A stretch of 64,000 nt of DNA from Candidatus Acidiflorens stordalenmirensis (GTDB lineage: Bacteria; Acidobacteriota; Terriglobia; Terriglobales; Acidobacteriaceae). Under the pieces are notes generated by a model. It had not been told where the DNA came from. It did not search any database and saw nothing but the letters and a program-made list of their open reading frames with translations. Shown one piece after another: positions 51,876 to 61,675 of the stretch (its first letter is position 1; every line of letters begins with the position of its first letter). A program made the position numbers and the translations under genes. The DNA lies in NCBI GenBank assembly GCA_003139995.1, contig PLIC01000109.1, positions 1 through 64,000 on the forward strand, in the 5' to 3' direction.

Positions 51876-52489
51876 CTGTATTGCACTGACGGAAGTGCTT
51901 GGTGCGTTCAGCGCGGATGGTTCCCATTAGCTAGGAACCCGGCTGGGGGATATCCAGCCGCGAATTGACCATGCGTGCGTGACAAAAATCACCGACAGAC
52001 GAAGCCGGAAAGATCTAATAATAATTTTAGGAGGACTCAAAAACTGAATACCGCAAATTGGGCCCGGCCATACCAAAGAGTGAGGACACTCGCTCAGCCG
52101 CCGCTCGACGGCGAGTGGCCGGGCCTTCGGCATTTCCTGCGGTTTGCCAAGAATTCTTGAGCAAACCAACCCATCCGAGCGAGCGTTTCCTCGACTACTT
52201 CCGCCGGCCCGCTGCGCACCGTGATCTTGAATCCGCGTCTTTTCGCCTCGCGCACAAAAGCCCTGCCGGGCACTGCCAGTTCCAACCGTATCGCGCCCAT
52301 CGGGATGTCCTGCTTCGCCATCATCGCGGCAACGGTTGAAATGTGCCGGATGCACACTTAACCTCTTTCCTGTCTTCAAGATAGCTCTTGCTGTGGCACA
52401 ACTCACCCCTAGCTGTGATGAGCGGCACAGCCGCGACTGCTGCCAAGCGAGAGAATACAAGTTTAACAATCTCCGCTGGAGGAAGATTC
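51876..52489. other. spacer between the two right-hand operons
   Basis: About 614 bases. A strong AGGAGGA at 52029-52035 precedes an open frame that would begin with CTG 52044 and run to TGA 52160 (38 codons), a possible leader peptide. On the minus strand an 87-codon frame (52094-52357) is listed separately. The last ~130 bases should hold the promoter of the carbamoyl-phosphate cluster, though no clear consensus boxes were found. Confidence 0.45.
52094..52357 (-). CDS. possible small protein, 87 aa, divergent from the carbamoyl-phosphate cluster
   Basis: A minus-strand frame starting with GTG 52357, with GAGG four bases upstream. The first two thirds look protein-like, with hydrophobic strands alternating with basic helices (IRLELAVPGRAFVREAKRRG, then FKITVRSGPAEVVEETLARMG); the tail is Arg/Ser/Pro-rich. 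No family was recognised. It would be transcribed away from the GTPase-like gene and might be a small regulator, but it overlaps a plus-strand leader-like frame, so it may equally be spurious. Confidence 0.3.
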   Translation of the reverse strand: MCIRHISTVAAMMAKQDIPMGAIRLELAVPGRAFVREAKRRGFKITVRSGPAEVVEETLARMGWFAQEFLANRRKCRRPGHSPSSGG

Positions 52490-53833
52490 ATGAAGAAAGT
52501 GTTGATCCTTGGTGCCGCAGGCAGGGACTTCCATAACTTTAACGTCTTATTTCGCAATAATCCCGACTACCAGGTAGTCGCATTCACAGCCACTCAGATT
52601 CCCGACATTGCCGGCCGCCGTTATCCGCCGGAACTTGCCGGACGCTTGTATCCGGAAGGCATTCCTATCTTCGAAGAGAAAGATTTGGAAACCCTGATCG
52701 CCAAGCACAAGATTGACGCTGTGGTGTTTTCCTATAGCGACGTTTCCTACCAGACCCTCATGCATCTTGCCTCCCGTGCGGTCGCCGCGGACGTCGATTT
52801 CTGGCTTCTCGGAACCGAGCGCACCCAGATCAAGTCGTCGGTCCCCGTCGTTTCCGTGTGCGCGGTGCGAACTGGATGCGGCAAAAGCCCAGTCTCGCGC
52901 CTGGTCGCCCGAGAGTTGCGCCGCCTGGGCCGAAAGCCAGTGGTCATCCGGCACCCCATGCCTTACGGAGATCTCGCGGCGCAGGCTGTCCAGCGTTTCG
53001 CCACCATGGACGACCTCGACCTTCAGCAATGCACCATCGAGGAACGCGAAGAGTATGAACCGCACATTACCAAAGGGACCGTGGTGTATGCGGGAGTCGA
53101 CTACGAAAAGATCGTCCGCCAGGCCGAGAAGGAAGCGGATGTCATTTTGTGGGACGGCGGCAACAACGACACTCCTTTCTATGTCTCCGACCTGGAAATC
53201 GTTGTGGTAGATCCGCACCGGCCGGGGCATGAACTGTCTTACTTCCCTGGTGAAGTCAATCTGCGGCGCGCGGATGCGATCGTGATCAATAAGGTGGACA
53301 CGGCCGAGCAGCATAACATTGAGACGGTCCGCCAAAACATAAAGCTTAACAACCCCAAGGCGGCTGTTTTTGAGATGGCCTGCCGAGTCTCCGTTCCCGA
53401 TCCGCATCTGGTGAAGGGGAAGCGCGTGCTGGTGGTGGAGGACGGTCCCACACTCACTCACGGAGAAATGGCCTACGGCGCCGGGGTGGTCGCGGCGCGG
53501 CAATGTGGGGCGGCGGAATTGGTGGATCCGCGGCCTTATGCCATGGGATCCATCCGCGGCACCTACGAGCGTTATCCGCACATGACGATCCTTTTACCCG
53601 CTATGGGTTACAGCGCTATCCAAAGGCACGAACTGGAGGAAACCATCCGCCGCACTCCCTGCGATCTCGTGCTGATTGCCACTCCCATTGACCTCACGCG
53701 GGTCATCAGACTCGATAAGCCCAGTCTCCGCGTGACCTATGAAGTCGAAGAACTCAGCAAGCCAGGCCTGGCCGAAACGCTTGCCAACTTTACGCGCGAA
53801 CACGCGCCAGCACTAACAGGAGGCGGAAAATGA
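52490..53833 (+). CDS. COG2403-type P-loop protein (cyclic 2,3-diphosphoglycerate synthetase-like GTPase)
   Basis: A 447-residue cytoplasmic protein. The N-terminal Rossmann-like part (KKVLILGAAGRDFHNFN) is followed by a SIMIBI-type P-loop (AVRTGCGKS, K132 and S133), a conserved RHPMPYGDL block, DGGNNDTPF, and an NKVD motif (N267-D270) that suggests guanine-nucleotide recognition. The only characterised relative known to me is archaeal cyclic 2,3-diphosphoglycerate synthetase; bacterial members are unassigned. The start has GGAGGAAG just upstream of ATG 52490. Its stop overlaps the ornithine carbamoyltransferase start by four bases, so a role in carbamoyl-phosphate or ornithine metabolism is likely but unproven. 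Confidence 0.8.
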   Translation: MKKVLILGAAGRDFHNFNVLFRNNPDYQVVAFTATQIPDIAGRRYPPELAGRLYPEGIPIFEEKDLETLIAKHKIDAVVFSYSDVSYQTLMHLASRAVAADVDFWLLGTERTQIKSSVPVVSVCAVRTGCGKSPVSRLVARELRRLGRKPVVIRHPMPYGDLAAQAVQRFATMDDLDLQQCTIEEREEYEPHITKGTVVYAGVDYEKIVRQAEKEADVILWDGGNNDTPFYVSDLEIVVVDPHRPGHELSYFPGEVNLRRADAIVINKVDTAEQHNIETVRQNIKLNNPKAAVFEMACRVSVPDPHLVKGKRVLVVEDGPTLTHGEMAYGAGVVAARQCGAAELVDPRPYAMGSIRGTYERYPHMTILLPAMGYSAIQRHELEETIRRTPCDLVLIATPIDLTRVIRLDKPSLRVTYEVEELSKPGLAETLANFTREHAPALTGGGK

Positions 53834-54801
53834 AAGGCAAGGATTTTCTCTCGATTCGAGATTTCTCGCCCTCGGAGATCCGGTACCTGCTCACTCTTGG
53901 CCGTCAAGTGAAGGCTCACCCGACCGCCTACAGTGGGACGCTCCGGCGCCAGACCCTGGCCATGATCTTCGAGAAACCTTCTTTGCGCACCCGGGTGACC
54001 TTTGATGTCGGCATCCAGCAACTGGGCGGCTTCTCGCTCTACCTTTCTCCTGCTGAGATCAATCTGGGCAAGCGCGAGTCGGTGTACGACGTGGCGAAAA
54101 ACCTGGAACGCATGGTGCAGGGCATCATGGTCCGCACCTTCTCCCATGAAGTGGTTGAACAATTGGGCCGGTACGCCAGGATCCCCGTCATCAATGGGCT
54201 CACCGATTACAGTCATCCCTGCCAGGCGATGGCGGATTACCTCACCATTTGGGAGACGAAAGGCAATCTGGAGGGTTTGAAGGTCGTATTTGTAGGCGAT
54301 GGCAATAACGTCGCGCGCTCCCTTGCGTTTGCCGGAGCCCAGCTCGGCGCGCACGTTTGGGTGGCTACGCCTCCGGGATACGAACTCGACGCCGAATCCG
54401 TGGAGTGGGCCCGCAAGCGTGGCGCCGAGACGGGAGGCACTTGCACCGTCACCAACGATCCCGCCGATGCGGCCTCCGGCGCCGATGTGATCTACACCGA
54501 TATCTGGGCCAGCATGGGGCAGGAGTCGGAAGCGGAGAAGCGCAAGCAAATCTTCGTCCCGTACAGGGTCGATGCGGCTCTGTTCGGCCGGGCCAAGCCG
54601 GATGCCATCTTTCTGCATTGCCTGCCCGCTCACCGCGGCGATGAAGTCACCAACGATGTGATTGACTCGCCACGGTCCCTGGTATTTCAGCAGGCCGAGA
54701 ACCGGCTGCACGCGCAAAAGGCGATCATGCTGGAATTGATGAAGGGTGAGTTCGTCAAATTGCCAGGACTCGCCGAGTTGCAGGAGTTGGTGCACATATA
54801 G
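53830..54801 (+). CDS. argF: ornithine carbamoyltransferase
   Basis: A 323-residue transcarbamylase. Carbamoyl-phosphate site: FEKPSLRTR (the usual STRTR reads SLRTR, a variant seen in other bacteria), RTFSH and HPCQAMADY. Ornithine site: DIWASMGQE and HCLPAHRGDEV. It interconverts ornithine plus carbamoyl phosphate with citrulline plus phosphate. Direction is not given by sequence; the neighbouring carbamate kinase and ornithine aminotransferase favour a catabolic use of citrulline, while arginine deiminase is absent. The ATG overlaps the GTPase-like stop by four bases. A 213-base repeat-rich gap separates it from the carbamate kinase gene. Confidence 0.93.
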   Translation: MKGKDFLSIRDFSPSEIRYLLTLGRQVKAHPTAYSGTLRRQTLAMIFEKPSLRTRVTFDVGIQQLGGFSLYLSPAEINLGKRESVYDVAKNLERMVQGIMVRTFSHEVVEQLGRYARIPVINGLTDYSHPCQAMADYLTIWETKGNLEGLKVVFVGDGNNVARSLAFAGAQLGAHVWVATPPGYELDAESVEWARKRGAETGGTCTVTNDPADAASGADVIYTDIWASMGQESEAEKRKQIFVPYRVDAALFGRAKPDAIFLHCLPAHRGDEVTNDVIDSPRSLVFQQAENRLHAQKAIMLELMKGEFVKLPGLAELQELVHI

Positions 54802-54820
54802 GAACAGTGGCTCGCTCTGT

Positions 54821-54962
54821 TTTGAAGGGGCGCGGCTTTAGCCGCGCCGTCAGTGCTGCAAGAAATGGCGGCTTGAGCCGCCGGTGCGTAGTTTCCTCAG
54901 GGGCTAAAGCCCTGTGTTGATGCGGCTCGTAACGGCCCGGCTGAAGCCGGACCCTTTCAAAG
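54821..54962. repeat. four-hairpin element with inverted termini
   Basis: Four hairpins in a row: GGCGCGGC-TTTA-GCCGCGCC (54829-54848), GGCGGC-TTGA-GCCGCC (54867-54882), GGGCT-AA-AGCCC (54901-54912) and CCGGC-TGAA-GCCGG (54937-54950). The block is bounded by tttgaagggg at the left and accctttcaaa at the right, which are inverted copies. It lies inside the carbamoyl-phosphate gene cluster. Confidence 0.8.
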
Positions 54963-55014
54963 CACCAGTTGCGGAACACGTTCCAGCAATGCCGCAAGCT
55001 GCTCGCTACTACTT

Positions 55015-56040
55015 ATGAAGACCATGCTCCTTGCCGTTGGCGGAAACTCCCTGATTCGCGCGGGAGAGAAGGGAACGATTGCCGAGCAACGGGCAAACGC
55101 CCAGCGGACCGCGGCCCAGATCGCCGGCCTGATCCGCGCCGGTTACCGGGTCGTGCTTACGCATGGCAATGGCCCGCAAGTTGGCGCGGCGCTTCTGCGG
55201 TCGGAACGCGGAGCGAGCCAGGTCCCTGGACACCCGCTCGACGTTTGCGGCGCCTCCACCCAGGGTGAGATCGGATATCTTCTCCAGCAATCGTTGCAGA
55301 CCGAGCTGCAACTGGCCGATCTGCGCGTGCCGGTCGCGACGGTTGTTACCCAGAGCCTGGTGTCGGCGGACGATCCCTCGATGAAGCACCCCACCAAACC
55401 GATCGGTCCTTTCTATTCGCTTGCCGACGCCGAGGAACGCAAACGCCTTTTCGGATGGGAGATCGTGGAGGATGCGGCCCGCGGTTATCGCCGTGTGGTT
55501 CCGTCGCCTGAGCCGGTTGGCATTGTCGAACTGGAGGTTATTCGAAATCTGGTCGGCCAGGGCGTGCTGGTCATCGCCTGCGGAGGCGGGGGCATTCCTG
55601 TGGTCCAGAGGGACGGAAGATTGCAAGGCGTCGAGGCTGTCATCGACAAGGATCGCGCCTCCGCTTGGCTGGCTTCACGCCTTGGCGTGGATCTGTTTGT
55701 TATTTCTACCGACACCGACTGCGTATATCTGGACTACAAGAAACCCACACAGCGTCCGTTGCAGCGCGTCGGCGCGGCTGAGTTGGACGGCTACGCCAAG
55801 GCTGGCCATTTCCCGCCCGGAAACATGGGCCCCAAAATCGAATCCGTGTTGCGCTTTCTGCGCGATGGCGGGAAAGAAGCTATCATTACCTCTTGCGAGA
55901 ATTTGTGCCCGGCGGTCGCCGGATCTGCCGGCACACACATATTCCCCGATCGCGACCACGCGGAAATCGAGCGCAGCGCCGATCTCAAGAACAAAGATCT
56001 CGAGAACATAGCGCTCGAACTCCCCGTAAAGGAACGCTAA
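55015..56040 (+). CDS. arcC: carbamate kinase
   Basis: A 341-residue amino-acid-kinase-fold enzyme making ATP from carbamoyl phosphate and ADP, with release of carbamate (to ammonia and CO2), or the reverse. Signatures: LLAVGGNSL, THGNGPQVG, HPTKPIGPFY, ACGGGGIPV, IDKDRASA, ISTDTDCVYL and FPPGNMGPKIE. It is about 25 residues longer than typical carbamate kinases, mostly at the C terminus. Its stop TAA shares its last base with the following ATG (ATCase-like gene), so the two are translationally coupled. Together with ornithine carbamoyltransferase it forms the energy-yielding half of an arginine/citrulline degradation route. Confidence 0.95.
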   Translation: MKTMLLAVGGNSLIRAGEKGTIAEQRANAQRTAAQIAGLIRAGYRVVLTHGNGPQVGAALLRSERGASQVPGHPLDVCGASTQGEIGYLLQQSLQTELQLADLRVPVATVVTQSLVSADDPSMKHPTKPIGPFYSLADAEERKRLFGWEIVEDAARGYRRVVPSPEPVGIVELEVIRNLVGQGVLVIACGGGGIPVVQRDGRLQGVEAVIDKDRASAWLASRLGVDLFVISTDTDCVYLDYKKPTQRPLQRVGAAELDGYAKAGHFPPGNMGPKIESVLRFLRDGGKEAIITSCENLCPAVAGSAGTHIFPDRDHAEIERSADLKNKDLENIALELPVKER

Positions 56041-57086
56041 TGCCAGAGCCATGTCCAGTTCCAACGACCACTCCTCCCAATCCAGCGCGGCCTCCTGCTT
56101 CGGGATCGGCGCTGAGAGGGGCGACATTGAAACATGTCGTCGAGTCTCAGCAATTCACGGTTCCCCTGCTCATGGAGTTATTCGACCGGTCGCGTGGCAT
56201 GGAGCACGTGGTGGCGCGCGGAGGCACCCTCGACTACCAGAACCGCATCATGACCACGCTTTTTTATACGCCTTCCACCCGCACTCGACTCTCGTTCGAG
56301 GCCGCCATGCATCGCCTGGGCGGCAGGGTCTTGTCCACGGAGCATGCGGGCGCGTTTTCTTCGGAGATCGAAGGCGAGCAGGTGGAGGACTCCATCCGGA
56401 TTATCGGCGGCCATTCGGATGTGATTGTGATCCGGCACACCGCCGAGGACGGCGCGCGGCGGGCCGCGGAAGTCTCGCCCGTGCCGGTGATCAATGCCGG
56501 GGATGGCAATGGCGGGCAGCATCCGACCCAAGCCTTGCTCGACTTGTACACGATTTACCGGCAGCGTCCGCTCGACGGCCTCAGCGTGGCCATCATTGGC
56601 GAGTTGGACAAGGGGCGCACGGCGCGATCGCTGGCCTATCTGCTGGCCAAGTTTGACCGCGTAAAAATGTTCTTTGTAAGTCCACCCCAACTCCAGATGA
56701 AACAGGATATCTTGGACTATCTCGATGAGCATGACGTCCGTTACGAACTGGAGTCGGATATTGACCGGGTGATTGGCGAAGTGGATGTGGTTTATCAGAC
56801 CCGAATCCGGCCCGAGCGAGTGCGGGACATGGCTGGTCGAAATAACGACGGTCGAGAAAACGACGGCCTCAAGCGTTATGCCATCGATTCGAAAGTCGTG
56901 CAGCGCATGAAGCCGGACGCGCTAATCCTTCATCCGCTGCCCCGCACGGTCGAGTTAGATAAGTCGGTCGACGCCGATCCCAGAGCCATGTATTTCCGTC
57001 AGGCCATGAATGGCCTCTACGTACGGATGGCGCTGTTGACCATGCTGTTGGATAAGGAGCAGGCAGCGAGGAGCGCTTGGTGGTAG
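56040..57086 (+). CDS. pyrB: aspartate carbamoyltransferase-like enzyme with altered substrate residues
   Basis: A 348-residue transcarbamylase with a Pro-rich N-terminal extension of about 25 residues and an inserted loop near residue 265. It keeps the carbamoyl-phosphate residues S79-T80-R81-T82 (STRTR), S107, R132, H161, Q164 and the HPLPR loop. Relative to E. coli ATCase two positions differ: the Lys84 position is E111 and the Gln231 position is R257. Plant-type ATCases, to which the rest is very similar, keep Lys and Gln there. The true acceptor may not be aspartate. No regulatory chain or pyrC is adjacent. The ATG overlaps the carbamate kinase stop by one base. Confidence 0.8.
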   Translation: MPEPCPVPTTTPPNPARPPASGSALRGATLKHVVESQQFTVPLLMELFDRSRGMEHVVARGGTLDYQNRIMTTLFYTPSTRTRLSFEAAMHRLGGRVLSTEHAGAFSSEIEGEQVEDSIRIIGGHSDVIVIRHTAEDGARRAAEVSPVPVINAGDGNGGQHPTQALLDLYTIYRQRPLDGLSVAIIGELDKGRTARSLAYLLAKFDRVKMFFVSPPQLQMKQDILDYLDEHDVRYELESDIDRVIGEVDVVYQTRIRPERVRDMAGRNNDGRENDGLKRYAIDSKVVQRMKPDALILHPLPRTVELDKSVDADPRAMYFRQAMNGLYVRMALLTMLLDKEQAARSAWW

Positions 57087-57094
57087 GGAACAGT

Positions 57095-57337
57095 ATGACA
57101 CTCAAGTTCTCAGCCAATCACTTCGCTTATGCCAGCCTCGTTTGCTCGCTCTCGTTTTGGCTTGGCCTGATTCTGAGTTACGTTCCGGGCGCTCCCAGGC
57201 TGAACTTCTCTGGAGTGTGGTGGCTCGCGATCATGGGCGTCGGCGTTGCATTGGCGATCGTTGCCGCCGTGCTCAATTTCGGGAAAAACTATGGATTCTG
57301 GCTGTCGTTCTGGCTCTCGGGACGCTTCTCTTCGTGA
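57095..57337 (+). CDS. small inner-membrane protein, 80 aa
   Basis: Two hydrophobic helices (about residues 12-30 and 43-66) flank a short loop with PGAPRLNFSG; a third short hydrophobic stretch ends the protein. It starts eight bases after the ATCase-like stop with AGGGA six bases upstream of ATG 57095, so it is part of the same operon. No family was recognised. It could be a membrane partner for uptake or for anchoring the carbamoyl-phosphate enzymes, but this is only a guess from position. Confidence 0.6.
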   Translation: MTLKFSANHFAYASLVCSLSFWLGLILSYVPGAPRLNFSGVWWLAIMGVGVALAIVAAVLNFGKNYGFWLSFWLSGRFSS

Positions 57338-57428
57338 TGTACGTGATAGGGTCGTGACAGAATATTCGCGCAGTTGCAGCGAACTGAGCAAGCCGGCTTA
57401 TGAGATAACTAGGCCTTGAAAGGACATT

Positions 57429-58649
57429 ATGACCACCGAACTAATAGAAAAATCCAAGCGCACCGATTACTTCGTAGAACTCGAGAACCAATATGGCGCT
57501 CATAACTATCACCCGCTCGACGTGGTAATCGAGCGCGCGGAAGGCGTGTGGGTGTATGACGTCGAGGGCAAACGTTACCTCGATTGTCTGGCTGCCTATT
57601 CCGCGGTGAATCAAGGACACTGCCATCCCAAAATTCTGCAGGCCCTTAACGAGCAGGCGCGGAAAGTCACCCTTACCTCGCGCGCCTTCCGCAACGACCA
57701 ACTGCCGCTGCTCTACAAAGAAGTCCACGACTTGACTGGCTTCGACATGACGCTCCCCATGAACTCAGGCGCCGAGGCCGTCGAAACCGCAATCAAGACA
57801 GCTCGCAAGTGGGGTTACAAGATCAAGGGCATTCCCCAGGACAAGGCAGAAATCATTGTCTGCGCCAATAATTTTCATGGCCGCACCGTCACCATCGTCG
57901 GCTTCTCGACCGACGAACAATATCGCGACGGCTTCGGCCCATTCACTCCGGGGTTCAAAATCATTCCATTCGGCGATGCGCGCGCTCTCCGCGAAGCCAT
58001 CACCCACAACACTTGCGCCTTTCTGGTCGAGCCCATTCAGGGCGAGGCCGGAATCGTCATTCCGCCCAAGGGATTTCTTCGGGAAGCGGCGGAAATCTGC
58101 CGCCAGAATCGCGTGCTCCTGATGGCGGACGAAATTCAGTCCGGTCTCGGAAGAACTGGCAAACTCTTCGCCTACATGCACGAAGGAATCACGCCCGATG
58201 TGTTGATCATTGGCAAGGCCCTTGCCGGCGGATTCTATCCGGTCTCGGCCGTATTGGCGTCGCGAGAGATTCTCGGCGTGTACAAACCCGGCGACCATGG
58301 CAGCACCTTCGGCGGCAACCCGATGGGCTGCGCCATCGCGCGGACCGCGCTGCGAGTTCTCATCGAAGAGCAAATGGTGGAACGTTCCGCCGAGTTAGGC
58401 ACTTACTTCCTGACCCTGCTGCAAACGTTGCGCAGCCCCGACTTGAAAGAGGTGCGCGGCAAGGGCTTGTGGATCGGCATCGAGTTAAACAGCCTCGCGC
58501 GTCCGTACTGCGAAGCGCTCAAGGAACAAGGAATCCTGTGCAAGGAAACGCATGACCGGGTGATTCGCATCGCGCCCCCGCTCATCATCACCCGTCAGGA
58601 GATTGACTGGGCCTTTGAGCGAATCGCGAAAGTCATTCAGAAGCATTGA
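57429..58649 (+). CDS. rocD: ornithine aminotransferase
   Basis: A 406-residue class III PLP enzyme converting ornithine and 2-oxoglutarate to glutamate semialdehyde and glutamate. Signatures: the start block [64 protein letters not shown] and the PLP lysine in [15 protein letters not shown]. The match to ornithine aminotransferases is closer than to acetylornithine aminotransferase. It is placed 91 bases after the small membrane protein and completes the ornithine-consuming end of the cluster. It converges with the minus-strand REC-PPDK_N gene, 44 bases apart. Confidence 0.95.
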
Positions 58650-58693: not shown

Positions 58694-61675
58694 TTAGCTT
58701 TGCTGCGCTTCGGGCTTGAAGATTACGCCTTGACTGGTGCGGCTGTTCATCACGACGCGGATCGGCTCCGCAAACTGCAAGCGGCGGACACAGCCTTGCT
58801 CTTCCACGGCCGGTTGTTCCGCCAGCCACTGCCAATCGACCGAGCCTTCGCCGGCGTCTGGATTCACGGTGAAGTAACCGACCTGAAAGGCCGTGAGATT
58901 CTGGAAGAAATGGCTGCCCTGCGATGGGGTGACGCGAAAATCGCGGAACCCGGCCTCCACAATCGCGCGCGCGCCTGAAATTTCATCCCATTCCACCGGA
59001 ATGCCCAGCCAGGGTTCGTTCGATCCCCAGCGCCCAACCCCGATCAGCAGATAGGGCCGGTTCTCCTCACTGAGCCGGTGATTGAATTGAGCGACCGCCC
59101 GGGCCACTTCCTGGCTGCGGCTGCGCTCGAAGCGCTGCGAATCGACCACTACGGCATCGTGCAGATTCTCGATGCGGCCGTTGCCCAGAACTTTGCTGCT
59201 CCGGCAGATCAACCGCTCTGGCCGCACGTTGTCAAGGGCTAAGTCCTCGCCGTCGCGCGCCAGCGTCAATGGCCGGATCTGCAGGAAACCAAACTCCGCC
59301 GCTTGGCCCGCCTGCTGGGGCAGACGCACGGCAAATTCGATCTCCACGGGATTGCCCAGCGCATCCTTGCCTGCCCGAGCCAGGACATCGAGAATCTCAG
59401 CCAGCGGGAAAGTGCCGTGCTTGAGCATGGGGGCAAAGGTCACGATGCGCGCGCCCGGCCGGCTCACTCCATCGTAAACGGCATGGTTGTCCCTGGAGTA
59501 CGTTGAGGCCAGCGCCTGCAGCGTGCCGTCGCTCTCGGCGGCGTCCAGGCTTAACCGCCTCTCCTGCCAATGTCCCGGACGGCCTTCCTCGGCGCCATGC
59601 AACTCCAAGGCCCAGAATTCCGACTGCGAGTTGGCCAGTATGTCTTCGACCGAGGAAAACTGCACCAGGTTTTGGGGATAGCGCGGGCAGAAACTCAAAC
59701 ACTTCCCTCCATCCACCACCGCCCGGCCCAGGCCCAGCGCGACGGCCGCGATGCCATCCTCGAAAGTCATGGGCGGCACGGGATAAGAATTGATCGAGCG
59801 CACGACTCCGGAGAAATCCGGATAAAATCGCTCCCCGTGGGGCGTGCCCACAACCCGTTGGAGAATCACCGCCATTTTTTCCTCTTCCAGACGGTAGGGC
59901 GTGGCCCGCACGTAGGCTTTCGCATGGCGGCTGAAGGTGGAGGCGTAGACGCGCCGGATGGCCTCGCTCAGTGCCGCCAGCCGCTCGTCGAGATCGGCTT
60001 GCTGATTGCCCAGCATGAACGTCTCATACACTCCGGTAAAAGGCTGGTATTGCGAATCCTCCAGCAGGCTGGACGAGCGCACCGCCAACGGATGGTTTAC
60101 CTCGGCCAGAAACGATTTCAGGTCTTCGCTGAGGGATTTGGATAGCGGTGTGGCTAGGAACTTCCGCTGAATTTCCGCGTCGTCTTCCGAACGCAAGGCA
60201 AAGTCGAGAAGATTGTTCTCGGCCAGAAATTGATCGAACACATCCGTCGCCAGGACGACGGCGGGAGGCACCGCGATGCGAACGCCGGGAAAGCGGCGGG
60301 TGATACGGCTCTTGCGCAAAAGGTGGCGCACGAAAGCGAGGCCGCGAGCCTTGCCGCCCAGCGATCCGGAGCCGATCCGCAGAAAATTCGATTCCGAAGG
60401 CTTGAACGTATCGGCCCGGAAGTCGCCGATCAGCACCTCGTTCTGTTCCCGGCGATACTCGTGGATCGACTCGATCAGATCGCGCCGCAGATGTTCCGAA
60501 CTCGGAAAATCCGAGACCTTTCGCGGGCGGAGCTTGGCCGCCAACGCAAACTCGGTGCGCGCCATCAGCCAATGCGAGAAGTGGTTGCTCTGCGAGTGAA
60601 AGACGAGGCTTTCCGCCGGAACCGTTTGCAATCGTTCTTCCAGTTCGTTCAAGTCTTTCGCCCGTCCGACTTCGCTCGCATCCGGCAGACGAAACACGAA
60701 GTCGCCAAACCCGAATTGCTCGGTCAAGATCCGGCGCAAGTCTTTCAGCAGCGTGGGCGAACGCTTACGCAGAAACGAATAGCCCGCGGAATGCGCCCGC
60801 GGACGGAACTCGGTGCGGCTGGTCTGCAGCACCACGGGCACGTCCGGCACCAGGCTCTTCACCATGCGCGCCAGTTCAAAGCCCGCTTCCGGATTCAGCT
60901 TGCCCTCCCATGGAAACTCCACATCCGATACCAGGCCGAACAGATAATCGCGATACTCCTCGACCAGTCCGGCCGCCTCTTCGAAGTTCGAGCTCAGCAG
61001 AATTCTTGGCCGCGCCTGCATGCGCACCAGCTTGTGCGCCACGTTGATGCCTTCCTGAATCACGCGCTTCGATTGCTTGATCAGCTCGGTGTAGATCACG
61101 GGCAGGAACGATGAGTAATAACGAATGTTGTCTTCCACCACCAGCAGCACCGGCACGCCGATGGCCTGCGTGTCGTGCAGGACGTTGCGCTTATCCTCGA
61201 TGTACTTGACCATCGCGATCAGGATGCGGGCGTTGCCCTGCCACAGAAAAATGCGTTCGATCTCGGTGACTGGGTTCCGCGCCACGAAGTTCTTGATCTC
61301 GCGATAGTCGTAGGCCAGCACCAGCACGGGAACATCCAGCCCGGCCCGCTTCACCTCCCGCGCCAACTGCGCCGCGTCCATGTCGCCCACCGCGAGATTG
61401 GTGACGATCAGATTGAATTGCGGCTGCGAGCGGGCAAGCTCAACCGCTTCCGCGCAGCTCGAGACGTGCGCAATCCCTGGAATCTGCCGGAGGTTGAGTT
61501 CGAGCGATTCGTCGATGAGCAACTCGTTGAGGCGTCCGTCTTCGCGGAGAATGAAGGAATCGTACAGACTGGAGACGAGAAGAATGTTCTGCACCTTGAA
61601 CGGCATCAGGTTTTCGAAGCCTTCAAAGCGCTCTTCGGCGTCCAGAATCGACCCGGCTATGCGGCGGACACTCAT
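58694..61675 (-). CDS. fusion of two receiver-like domains with a PEP/pyruvate-binding (PPDK_N, ATP-grasp) domain
   Basis: A 993-residue soluble protein. Residues 25-160 form a receiver-like domain whose phospho-acceptor position is N93, hence degenerate. Residues 172-325 form a second receiver domain with acidic pair E181/D182 and D251 as likely phospho-acceptor. Residues about 430-820 form the N-terminal nucleotide-binding domain of pyruvate phosphate dikinase/PEP synthase: IGSGSLGGKARGLAF, LAVRSSSLLEDSQYQPFTGVYETF-type block and LQIRPL. No phosphohistidine swivelling domain and no PEP-binding TIM barrel follow; the last ~170 residues are unassigned. This may be a regulated phosphotransferase of unknown target. 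Start could also be M24 (MPFKVQNILLV). Confidence 0.85.
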   Translation of the reverse strand: MSVRRIAGSILDAEERFEGFENLMPFKVQNILLVSSLYDSFILREDGRLNELLIDESLELNLRQIPGIAHVSSCAEAVELARSQPQFNLIVTNLAVGDMDAAQLAREVKRAGLDVPVLVLAYDYREIKNFVARNPVTEIERIFLWQGNARILIAMVKYIEDKRNVLHDTQAIGVPVLLVVEDNIRYYSSFLPVIYTELIKQSKRVIQEGINVAHKLVRMQARPRILLSSNFEEAAGLVEEYRDYLFGLVSDVEFPWEGKLNPEAGFELARMVKSLVPDVPVVLQTSRTEFRPRAHSAGYSFLRKRSPTLLKDLRRILTEQFGFGDFVFRLPDASEVGRAKDLNELEERLQTVPAESLVFHSQSNHFSHWLMARTEFALAAKLRPRKVSDFPSSEHLRRDLIESIHEYRREQNEVLIGDFRADTFKPSESNFLRIGSGSLGGKARGLAFVRHLLRKSRITRRFPGVRIAVPPAVVLATDVFDQFLAENNLLDFALRSEDDAEIQRKFLATPLSKSLSEDLKSFLAEVNHPLAVRSSSLLEDSQYQPFTGVYETFMLGNQQADLDERLAALSEAIRRVYASTFSRHAKAYVRATPYRLEEEKMAVILQRVVGTPHGERFYPDFSGVVRSINSYPVPPMTFEDGIAAVALGLGRAVVDGGKCLSFCPRYPQNLVQFSSVEDILANSQSEFWALELHGAEEGRPGHWQERRLSLDAAESDGTLQALASTYSRDNHAVYDGVSRPGARIVTFAPMLKHGTFPLAEILDVLARAGKDALGNPVEIEFAVRLPQQAGQAAEFGFLQIRPLTLARDGEDLALDNVRPERLICRSSKVLGNGRIENLHDAVVVDSQRFERSRSQEVARAVAQFNHRLSEENRPYLLIGVGRWGSNEPWLGIPVEWDEISGARAIVEAGFRDFRVTPSQGSHFFQNLTAFQVGYFTVNPDAGEGSVDWQWLAEQPAVEEQGCVRRLQFAEPIRVVMNSRTSQGVIFKPEAQQS

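Follow-up and report, generated by a model that had tools for sequence, protein, structure and literature searches.

A gene in a 64,000-nucleotide stretch of DNA from Candidatus Acidiflorens stordalenmirensis (positions 1 to 64,000 of contig PLIC01000109.1; hereafter the window) encodes a protein, REC-REC-PPDK, that joins two receiver (REC) domains to an ATP-grasp domain of the pyruvate phosphate dikinase (PPDK) type. In related genomes the gene most often neighbors one for glutamate dehydrogenase (GDH). Our hypothesis, to which we give a probability of about one half, is that REC-REC-PPDK descends from the PPDK lineage and serves as a regulatory kinase, similar to mycobacterial VadK, which acts on or together with GDH under receiver control. 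The fusion of receivers with PPDK is already in print and the GDH link appears to be the new part; no report joining a REC-PPDK protein to GDH was found in partial listings of the open-access literature.

The open reading frame (ORF) is intact, single and exactly 993 amino acids long. Its features, all on the minus strand, are as follows:

58694..61675, minus strand: whole gene, 993 aa, REC-REC-(DUF5752-like)-PPDK_N-swivel-like (ORF and translation; 68 homologues aligned lengthwise)
61181..61597, minus strand: receiver 1, degenerate, residues 27-165 (structure match of residues 27-164 to the PorX receiver, Z 13.9)
60698..61159, minus strand: receiver 2 with a complete pocket (E181, D182, D251, S/T285, K304), residues 173-326 (structure match of residues 175-326 to a receiver, Z 16.5)
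60923..60925, minus strand: codon of D251, predicted phospho-acceptor of receiver 2 (from sequence)
60401..60697, minus strand: DUF5752-like linker domain, residues 327-425 (Pfam PF19027 at residues 337-413)
59243..60388, minus strand: PPDK-type ATP-grasp domain with K442, R533, T552, E780, Q799 and R801, residues 430-811 (Pfam and structure)
58709..59233, minus strand: C-terminal domain with a predicted swivelling phosphohistidine-like fold, residues 815-989 (AlphaFold model and structural matches)
58910..58912, minus strand: codon of His922, the proposed phospho-carrier histidine (from sequence)

A sample of 297 genomes of the phylum includes 88 with a homologue that covers most of the protein, and such homologues are also present in 80 loci, the best 80 among the matches listed; the architecture is therefore more than a chance occurrence and represents a conserved family. 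The family alignment comprises 68 homologues from these loci and the window protein (69 sequences, several phyla). Twelve loci were omitted: seven incomplete, three with stops or a frame break, and L059 and L068 by choice; alignment A3 left out three further sequences. In alignment A1 (26 members including the window protein), Pfam at E <= 0.01 detects PPDK_N in 26, Response_reg in 26 and DUF5752 in 22. An AlphaFold2 model of the whole protein, built from the 69 aligned sequences, reached a mean predicted local distance difference test score (pLDDT) of 85.2 and a predicted TM-score (pTM) of 0.72.

The core of the protein is the PPDK-type ATP-grasp domain named in the original prediction, which had been made from the sequence alone. 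PPDK_N spans residues 438-809 (E 5.5e-38), and the corresponding part of the model, from ~418 to 811, matches the structures of rifampin phosphotransferase (RPH), phosphoenolpyruvate (PEP) synthase (PEPS), PPDK and HpeI with Z of 16.7-26.7. K442, R533, E780 and Q799 are found in 69/69 sequences, T552 and R801 in 67/69. K442 is presumably the counterpart of RPH Lys22, and E780, Q799 and R801 form what we take, from family motifs, to be the downstream motif. R533 and T552 fall within the segment aligned to RPH, an enzyme whose Lys22, Arg117 and Thr136 contact the nucleotide according to the accessible part of its description (PMC4844700).

None of the 26 members gave a Pfam match at E <= 0.01 to the PEP/pyruvate-binding or PEP-utiliser domains, and in the model the protein chain terminates with the swivel-like domain. 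Since the PEP/pyruvate-binding domain was not found, a complete PEP synthase is excluded, and with it the full PEP synthase cycle, which had been considered impossible from the outset. Phosphotransfer to another molecule or protein under receiver control, as had also been proposed, would be the most likely kind of function.

The acceptor could be a small molecule, the protein then being a phosphotransferase (dikinase) of glutamate/2-oxoglutarate metabolism, like RPH or HpeHI, whose substrate GDH supplies or removes. The characterized enzymes with the closest ATP-grasp folds (RPH, PEPS, PPDK, HpeI) phosphorylate small molecules, the ATP-grasp residues are intact, and a shared pathway would also fit the GDH linkage. 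However, no counterpart of the rifampin- or PEP-binding domain was found, though the DUF5752-like part could bind something, and a regulatory role is suggested both by the presence of two receivers and by the way in which three PPDK-type families pair with two types of GDH (described below). We regard a dikinase of this kind as rather unlikely.

The region following the ATP-grasp domain is conserved and carries the motifs GRWG[ST] and PS.G[ST]HFF.N. Its His922 is invariant (69/69) and is found too in members of two paralogous families. We consider it probable, on the basis of the predicted structure, that this region is a divergent swivelling phosphohistidine domain. A model of the domain alone (66 sequences; pLDDT 88.9, pTM 0.88) was compared with known structures, and 9 of its top 12 rows are swivel domains, seven from PPDK (within residues 369-532) and two from RPH (756-867), with Z of 6.1-7.2 in a top-12 range of 6.1-7.4. 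The other three are one row of enzyme I-Ntr (170-397) and two of pyruvate kinase, which correspond to the extra C-terminal domain of that enzyme, akin to swivel domains. Two more RPH/PPDK rows appear lower in the list (Z 5.8 and 5.5), where rows from Z 5.9 down are mostly other folds (TRiC/thermosome apical domains, aconitase).

Alignments of the whole model to PEP synthase (418-989 onto 4-467, root-mean-square deviation 4.3) and PPDK (429-989 onto 7-511, 5.1), both given by their first and last residues only, reach into this domain; the other ATP-grasp rows end near 804-811, the ATP-grasp boundary. In the model secondary structure, His922 heads helix 921-929 after strand 902-908 and a loop, a position at a helix start which we take to match the place of the PPDK T-S-H motif.

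Several results weigh against the swivel assignment. The Z range of 6.1-7.4 lies below 8, where the aligner allows a mere common arrangement. Comparison of the C-terminal profile by hhalign with 12 and then 43 swivel segments gave no match (probability 0.2%); five of the 43 segments are out-of-frame artefacts, the other 38 still gave a null result, and the split-half positive control scored 100%. A Foldseek search with the C-terminal model alone found no match at E <= 0.001, the best being LD-carboxypeptidases (E 0.014), and Pfam detects no swivel (PEP-utilisers) domain in the C-terminal part. As the profile comparison is null, the assignment rests on structure. Thus, of the statement that the protein lacks both the swivelling and the PEP-binding domain, the second half stands by Pfam, whereas a swivel domain is probably there, judging from the predicted fold and the invariant His922. 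The domain prediction suggested for the last ~170 residues points to a swivel-like domain by structure, undetected by Pfam, profile comparison and Foldseek. The supposed absence of a phosphohistidine domain from the chain is accordingly contradicted at the level of predicted structure.

The same null results by sequence profile and Foldseek would suit a regulator that senses ATP and transfers no phosphate, its receivers and ATP-grasp domain taking up signals and ATP and controlling GDH by binding only, and His922 having a structural role. We find such a sensor unlikely, as K442, R533, E780, Q799 and H922 are retained in 69/69 sequences over several phyla, which exceeds the expectation for a dead enzyme.

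Upstream of the kinase core, structure comparison of the model places receiver folds at residues 27-164 and 174-326. Response_reg matches the window protein weakly (residues 45-121, 21.1 bits, below the cut-off of 30.2); in the 26 aligned members that all carry it at E <= 0.01, the best value is 3.6e-11. The original prediction called the first receiver degenerate at N93 and the second apparently active at D251, and residue counts in the 69 sequences bear out both. Position 93 is T in 28 sequences, M in 18, N in 9, S in 5, A in 3, F in 3, and G, L and V in one each, and is never D. In receiver 2, E181, D251, K304 and S/T285 are each present in 69/69 and D182 in 63/69, with N in the other 6, so that the phospho-acceptor Asp, acidic pair, Ser/Thr and Lys of a receiver apparently capable of phosphorylation are complete. 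The linker between receiver 2 and the ATP-grasp domain matches PF19027 (DUF5752) just above threshold (23.1 bits vs a cut-off of 23).

The connection with GDH emerges from the gene neighborhoods. A survey of these had been proposed in search of a separate phosphohistidine protein; GDH came out as the commonest neighbor instead, its cluster being represented in 50 of the 80 loci and the next one in 12 (clustering of 922 ORFs). By translated search, GDH lies less than 1 kb from the gene in 42 of the 56 loci having at least 1.2 kb of both flanks (on the same strand in 36 of the 56) and in 53 of all 80, usually just upstream of the REC-REC-PPDK gene and on the same strand. According to record titles, mostly of metagenome-assembled records, GDH-adjacent genes belong to Acidobacteria, Gemmatimonadota, Ignavibacteria/Bacteroidetes, Calditrichaceae, KSB1, Planctomycetota, Eisenbacteria, Zixiibacteriota and Deltaproteobacteria. 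A further 49 loci include 25 with GDH within 1 kb, all among the 29 from outside the genus of the window. PEP-utiliser genes of the window's relatives served as a control: none of their 18 loci has GDH in the flanks (up to 1.5 kb).

In the 297 genomes of the phylum, the REC-REC-PPDK gene is present in 88 and a GDH of the first type (GDH-I) in 109; 82 have both, 6 the kinase gene only, 27 GDH-I only and 182 neither. These counts omit focal rows below ~600 bits, short paralogues and four genomes with GDH matches of 35-40% (113 reduced to 109). The two genes are adjacent (<=2 kb) in 62 of the 88 genomes, with GDH upstream and on the same strand in 59 of the 62, and adjacency spans 25 of 28 families and 34 of 48 genera. 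An apparent fusion with GDH in L116 was rejected: a 1321-aa ORF overlaps the gene in another frame, and GDH is separate, 108 bp downstream. On a Bacteroidetes contig (L127:5101-19387) the genes alternate in the order PPDK-nucleotidyltransferase, GDH, REC-REC-PPDK, GDH, REC-REC-PPDK, GDH.

Other observations speak against a functional bond between the kinase and GDH. The Fisher p of 1.3e-41 for co-occurrence ignores phylogeny. The window genome has no GDH beside the gene, its two GDH-type matches being on contigs C8 and C171, not C179, and none of the 20 loci of its genus (L005-L024; flanks short, several cut) has GDH next to the gene. Adjacency is lacking in 26 of the 88 focal genomes, some of which contig ends may explain, and the 27 genomes with GDH-I alone demonstrate that GDH does not need the REC-REC-PPDK gene. 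No histidine-kinase-like cluster is prominent, judged by eye, among the commonest neighbors in the 80 loci. The C8 gene of the window genome encodes a 465-aa GDH-I (NCBIfam NADP-specific GDH); genome G124 carries an 82%-identical REC-REC-PPDK homologue with GDH-I directly upstream, 84% identical to that of the window genome.

Such neighborhoods might instead stem from the history of the genomes or from a glutamate/nitrogen regulon to which both genes belong, with the kinase targeting another protein: the window gene adjoins arginine genes and not GDH, and adjacency alone indicates co-expression at most. Yet the GDH neighbor recurs over several phyla with short same-strand spacing, and three PPDK-type families have the GDH link in selected loci, which makes this explanation improbable in our view.

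The two further families share the ATP-grasp and histidine motif of REC-REC-PPDK. One of them (~600 aa) has no receivers, and the other (~1060 aa) possesses a C-terminal nucleotidyltransferase domain. In L154, L155, L156, L157 and L066, loci picked for holding paralogues and thus giving no rate, their genes line up with a gene for another type of GDH (GDH-II). Rows of GDH-II, receiver-less PPDK_N and PPDK_N-nucleotidyltransferase genes are located at:

L154:1142-8550
L156:1742-8981
L157:8515-14841
L066:12966-19177

Both sets occur together in L157 and L066, where GDH-I with REC-REC-PPDK faces GDH-II with the short PPDK and PPDK-nucleotidyltransferase, and L158 contains GDH-I and all three kinases. 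Neither paralogous family was found in the window genome at the thresholds used. A calcineurin-like phosphoesterase gene adjoins the row in L154 and L156, and the nucleotidyltransferase recalls the covalent control of nitrogen enzymes.

We propose that a regulatory kinase of this type would work in the following way. The ATP-grasp domain would bind ATP, as its conserved residues suggest; the swivel-like domain would then dock and His922 receive the phosphate, consistent with the predicted fold and the invariance of the histidine. Either the swivel domain in its phosphorylated form or the phosphate alone would act on GDH and tune glutamate synthesis or breakdown, an action that we infer from the gene linkage and the analogy with VadK. 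A histidine kinase encoded elsewhere, or else a small phosphodonor, may phosphorylate D251 and thereby set the timing, and receiver 1 may serve as a structural or dimerization part. In a variant of this scheme, the PPDK-type core would charge His922 from ATP and pass the phosphate to Asp251 of the same chain, GDH being the output. We consider this internal relay distinctly improbable; if real, it would be a new kind of phosphorelay, complete in one chain, with ATP-grasp chemistry in place of a histidine kinase, and the three related families would make up a GDH-dedicated control system over many bacterial phyla. GDH connects carbon with nitrogen metabolism, and its control in most bacterial phyla is little known.

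Around the gene in the window, positions 52388-58649 encode a GTPase-like protein (weak LpxK match), ornithine carbamoyltransferase, a carbamate kinase-like protein, a second carbamoyltransferase and a class-III aminotransferase (RocD). The two different carbamoyltransferase genes flank the carbamate kinase-like gene, and the REC-REC-PPDK gene is convergent with the ornithine aminotransferase gene. These arginine genes were rejected as conserved partners, since of the loci searched L068 alone repeats the full cluster close to the gene; partial matches are the GTPase alone in L069 and a RocD homologue in L131, flanks being short in many loci. Two relatives belonging to the genus of the window have ORFs of 145 and 112 aa that contain a PEP-utiliser swivel domain (L149, G002:C41; L153, G004:C301). 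A viral structure library returned mainly ordinary receiver matches to the whole model and was uninformative on function; its top match, Gp139 of Bacillus phage G (G3MBK5, 365 aa, E 1.3e-9), perhaps corresponds to the ATP-grasp part.

Known systems resemble REC-REC-PPDK in part. PEP synthase and PPDK also have the PPDK_N ATP-grasp domain, which is followed by a swivel domain in these enzymes and by the predicted swivel-like one here; the window family differs in being without the PEP/pyruvate-binding domain, in having G[ST]HFF instead of TSHAA and in its two added receivers. HpeI, of the two-component HpeHI kinase (9goj), also employs a PPDK-type ATP-grasp outside PEP chemistry and matches residues 429-808 with Z 19.9. 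The HpeHI kinase is split between two proteins. Unlike the function proposed here, it starts the catabolism of hydroxyphenylethanones, as stated in the accessible part of its description.

RPH is the best structural match of the ATP-grasp domain (Z 26.7) and ranks second for the C-terminal domain (Z 7.2). In the accessible part of its description it has the ATP-grasp first and a C-terminal swivel domain with the histidine, His825 (PMC4844700), as is predicted for the window protein. RPH has a rifampin-binding domain between the two, for which the window protein has no counterpart: its swivel-like domain directly follows the ATP-grasp, beginning within about 15 residues of the ATP-grasp end in the model, and two receivers precede the ATP-grasp. 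The NCBIfam model RIF_Ptrans_rph scores 26.5 bits on the window protein vs a cut-off of 999.

Fusions of receivers with PPDK appear in published surveys. In the accessible parts of these, the REC and PPDK combination is termed "Bacteroides-like" (PMC5847659), and PPDK is listed as one of the effectors strongly associated with receivers that lack the aspartate (PMC4395418). Set side by side by description, these fusions have the same bare architecture as the window protein; the same parts of both surveys mention no GDH link and no C-terminal phosphohistidine-like domain, and offer as to function only a reference to C4 carbon metabolism (PMC4395418, PMC5847659).

VadK (Rv1127c) of M. tuberculosis is the closest analogue in terms of the proposed role. 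According to the accessible part of its report, it consists of an ATP-grasp and a phosphohistidine domain with no PEP domain, autophosphorylates His422 and co-purified with PrpC and PrpD, enzymes of the methylcitrate cycle (PMC13400623). The likeness, again by description, thus lies in a PPDK-derived ATP-grasp combined with a histidine domain, the absence of a PEP domain and the regulation of metabolic enzymes (PMC13400623), the histidine domain of the window protein being a predicted structure only. VadK differs in that its ATP-binding domain is N-terminal, joined to the histidine domain with no receivers, and in acting on the methylcitrate cycle (PMC13400623). If our hypothesis is correct, REC-REC-PPDK would provide a second and far broader case, after VadK, of PEP-synthase chemistry turned to enzyme regulation, and the receiver-PPDK fusions known from surveys would gain a specific partner, GDH.

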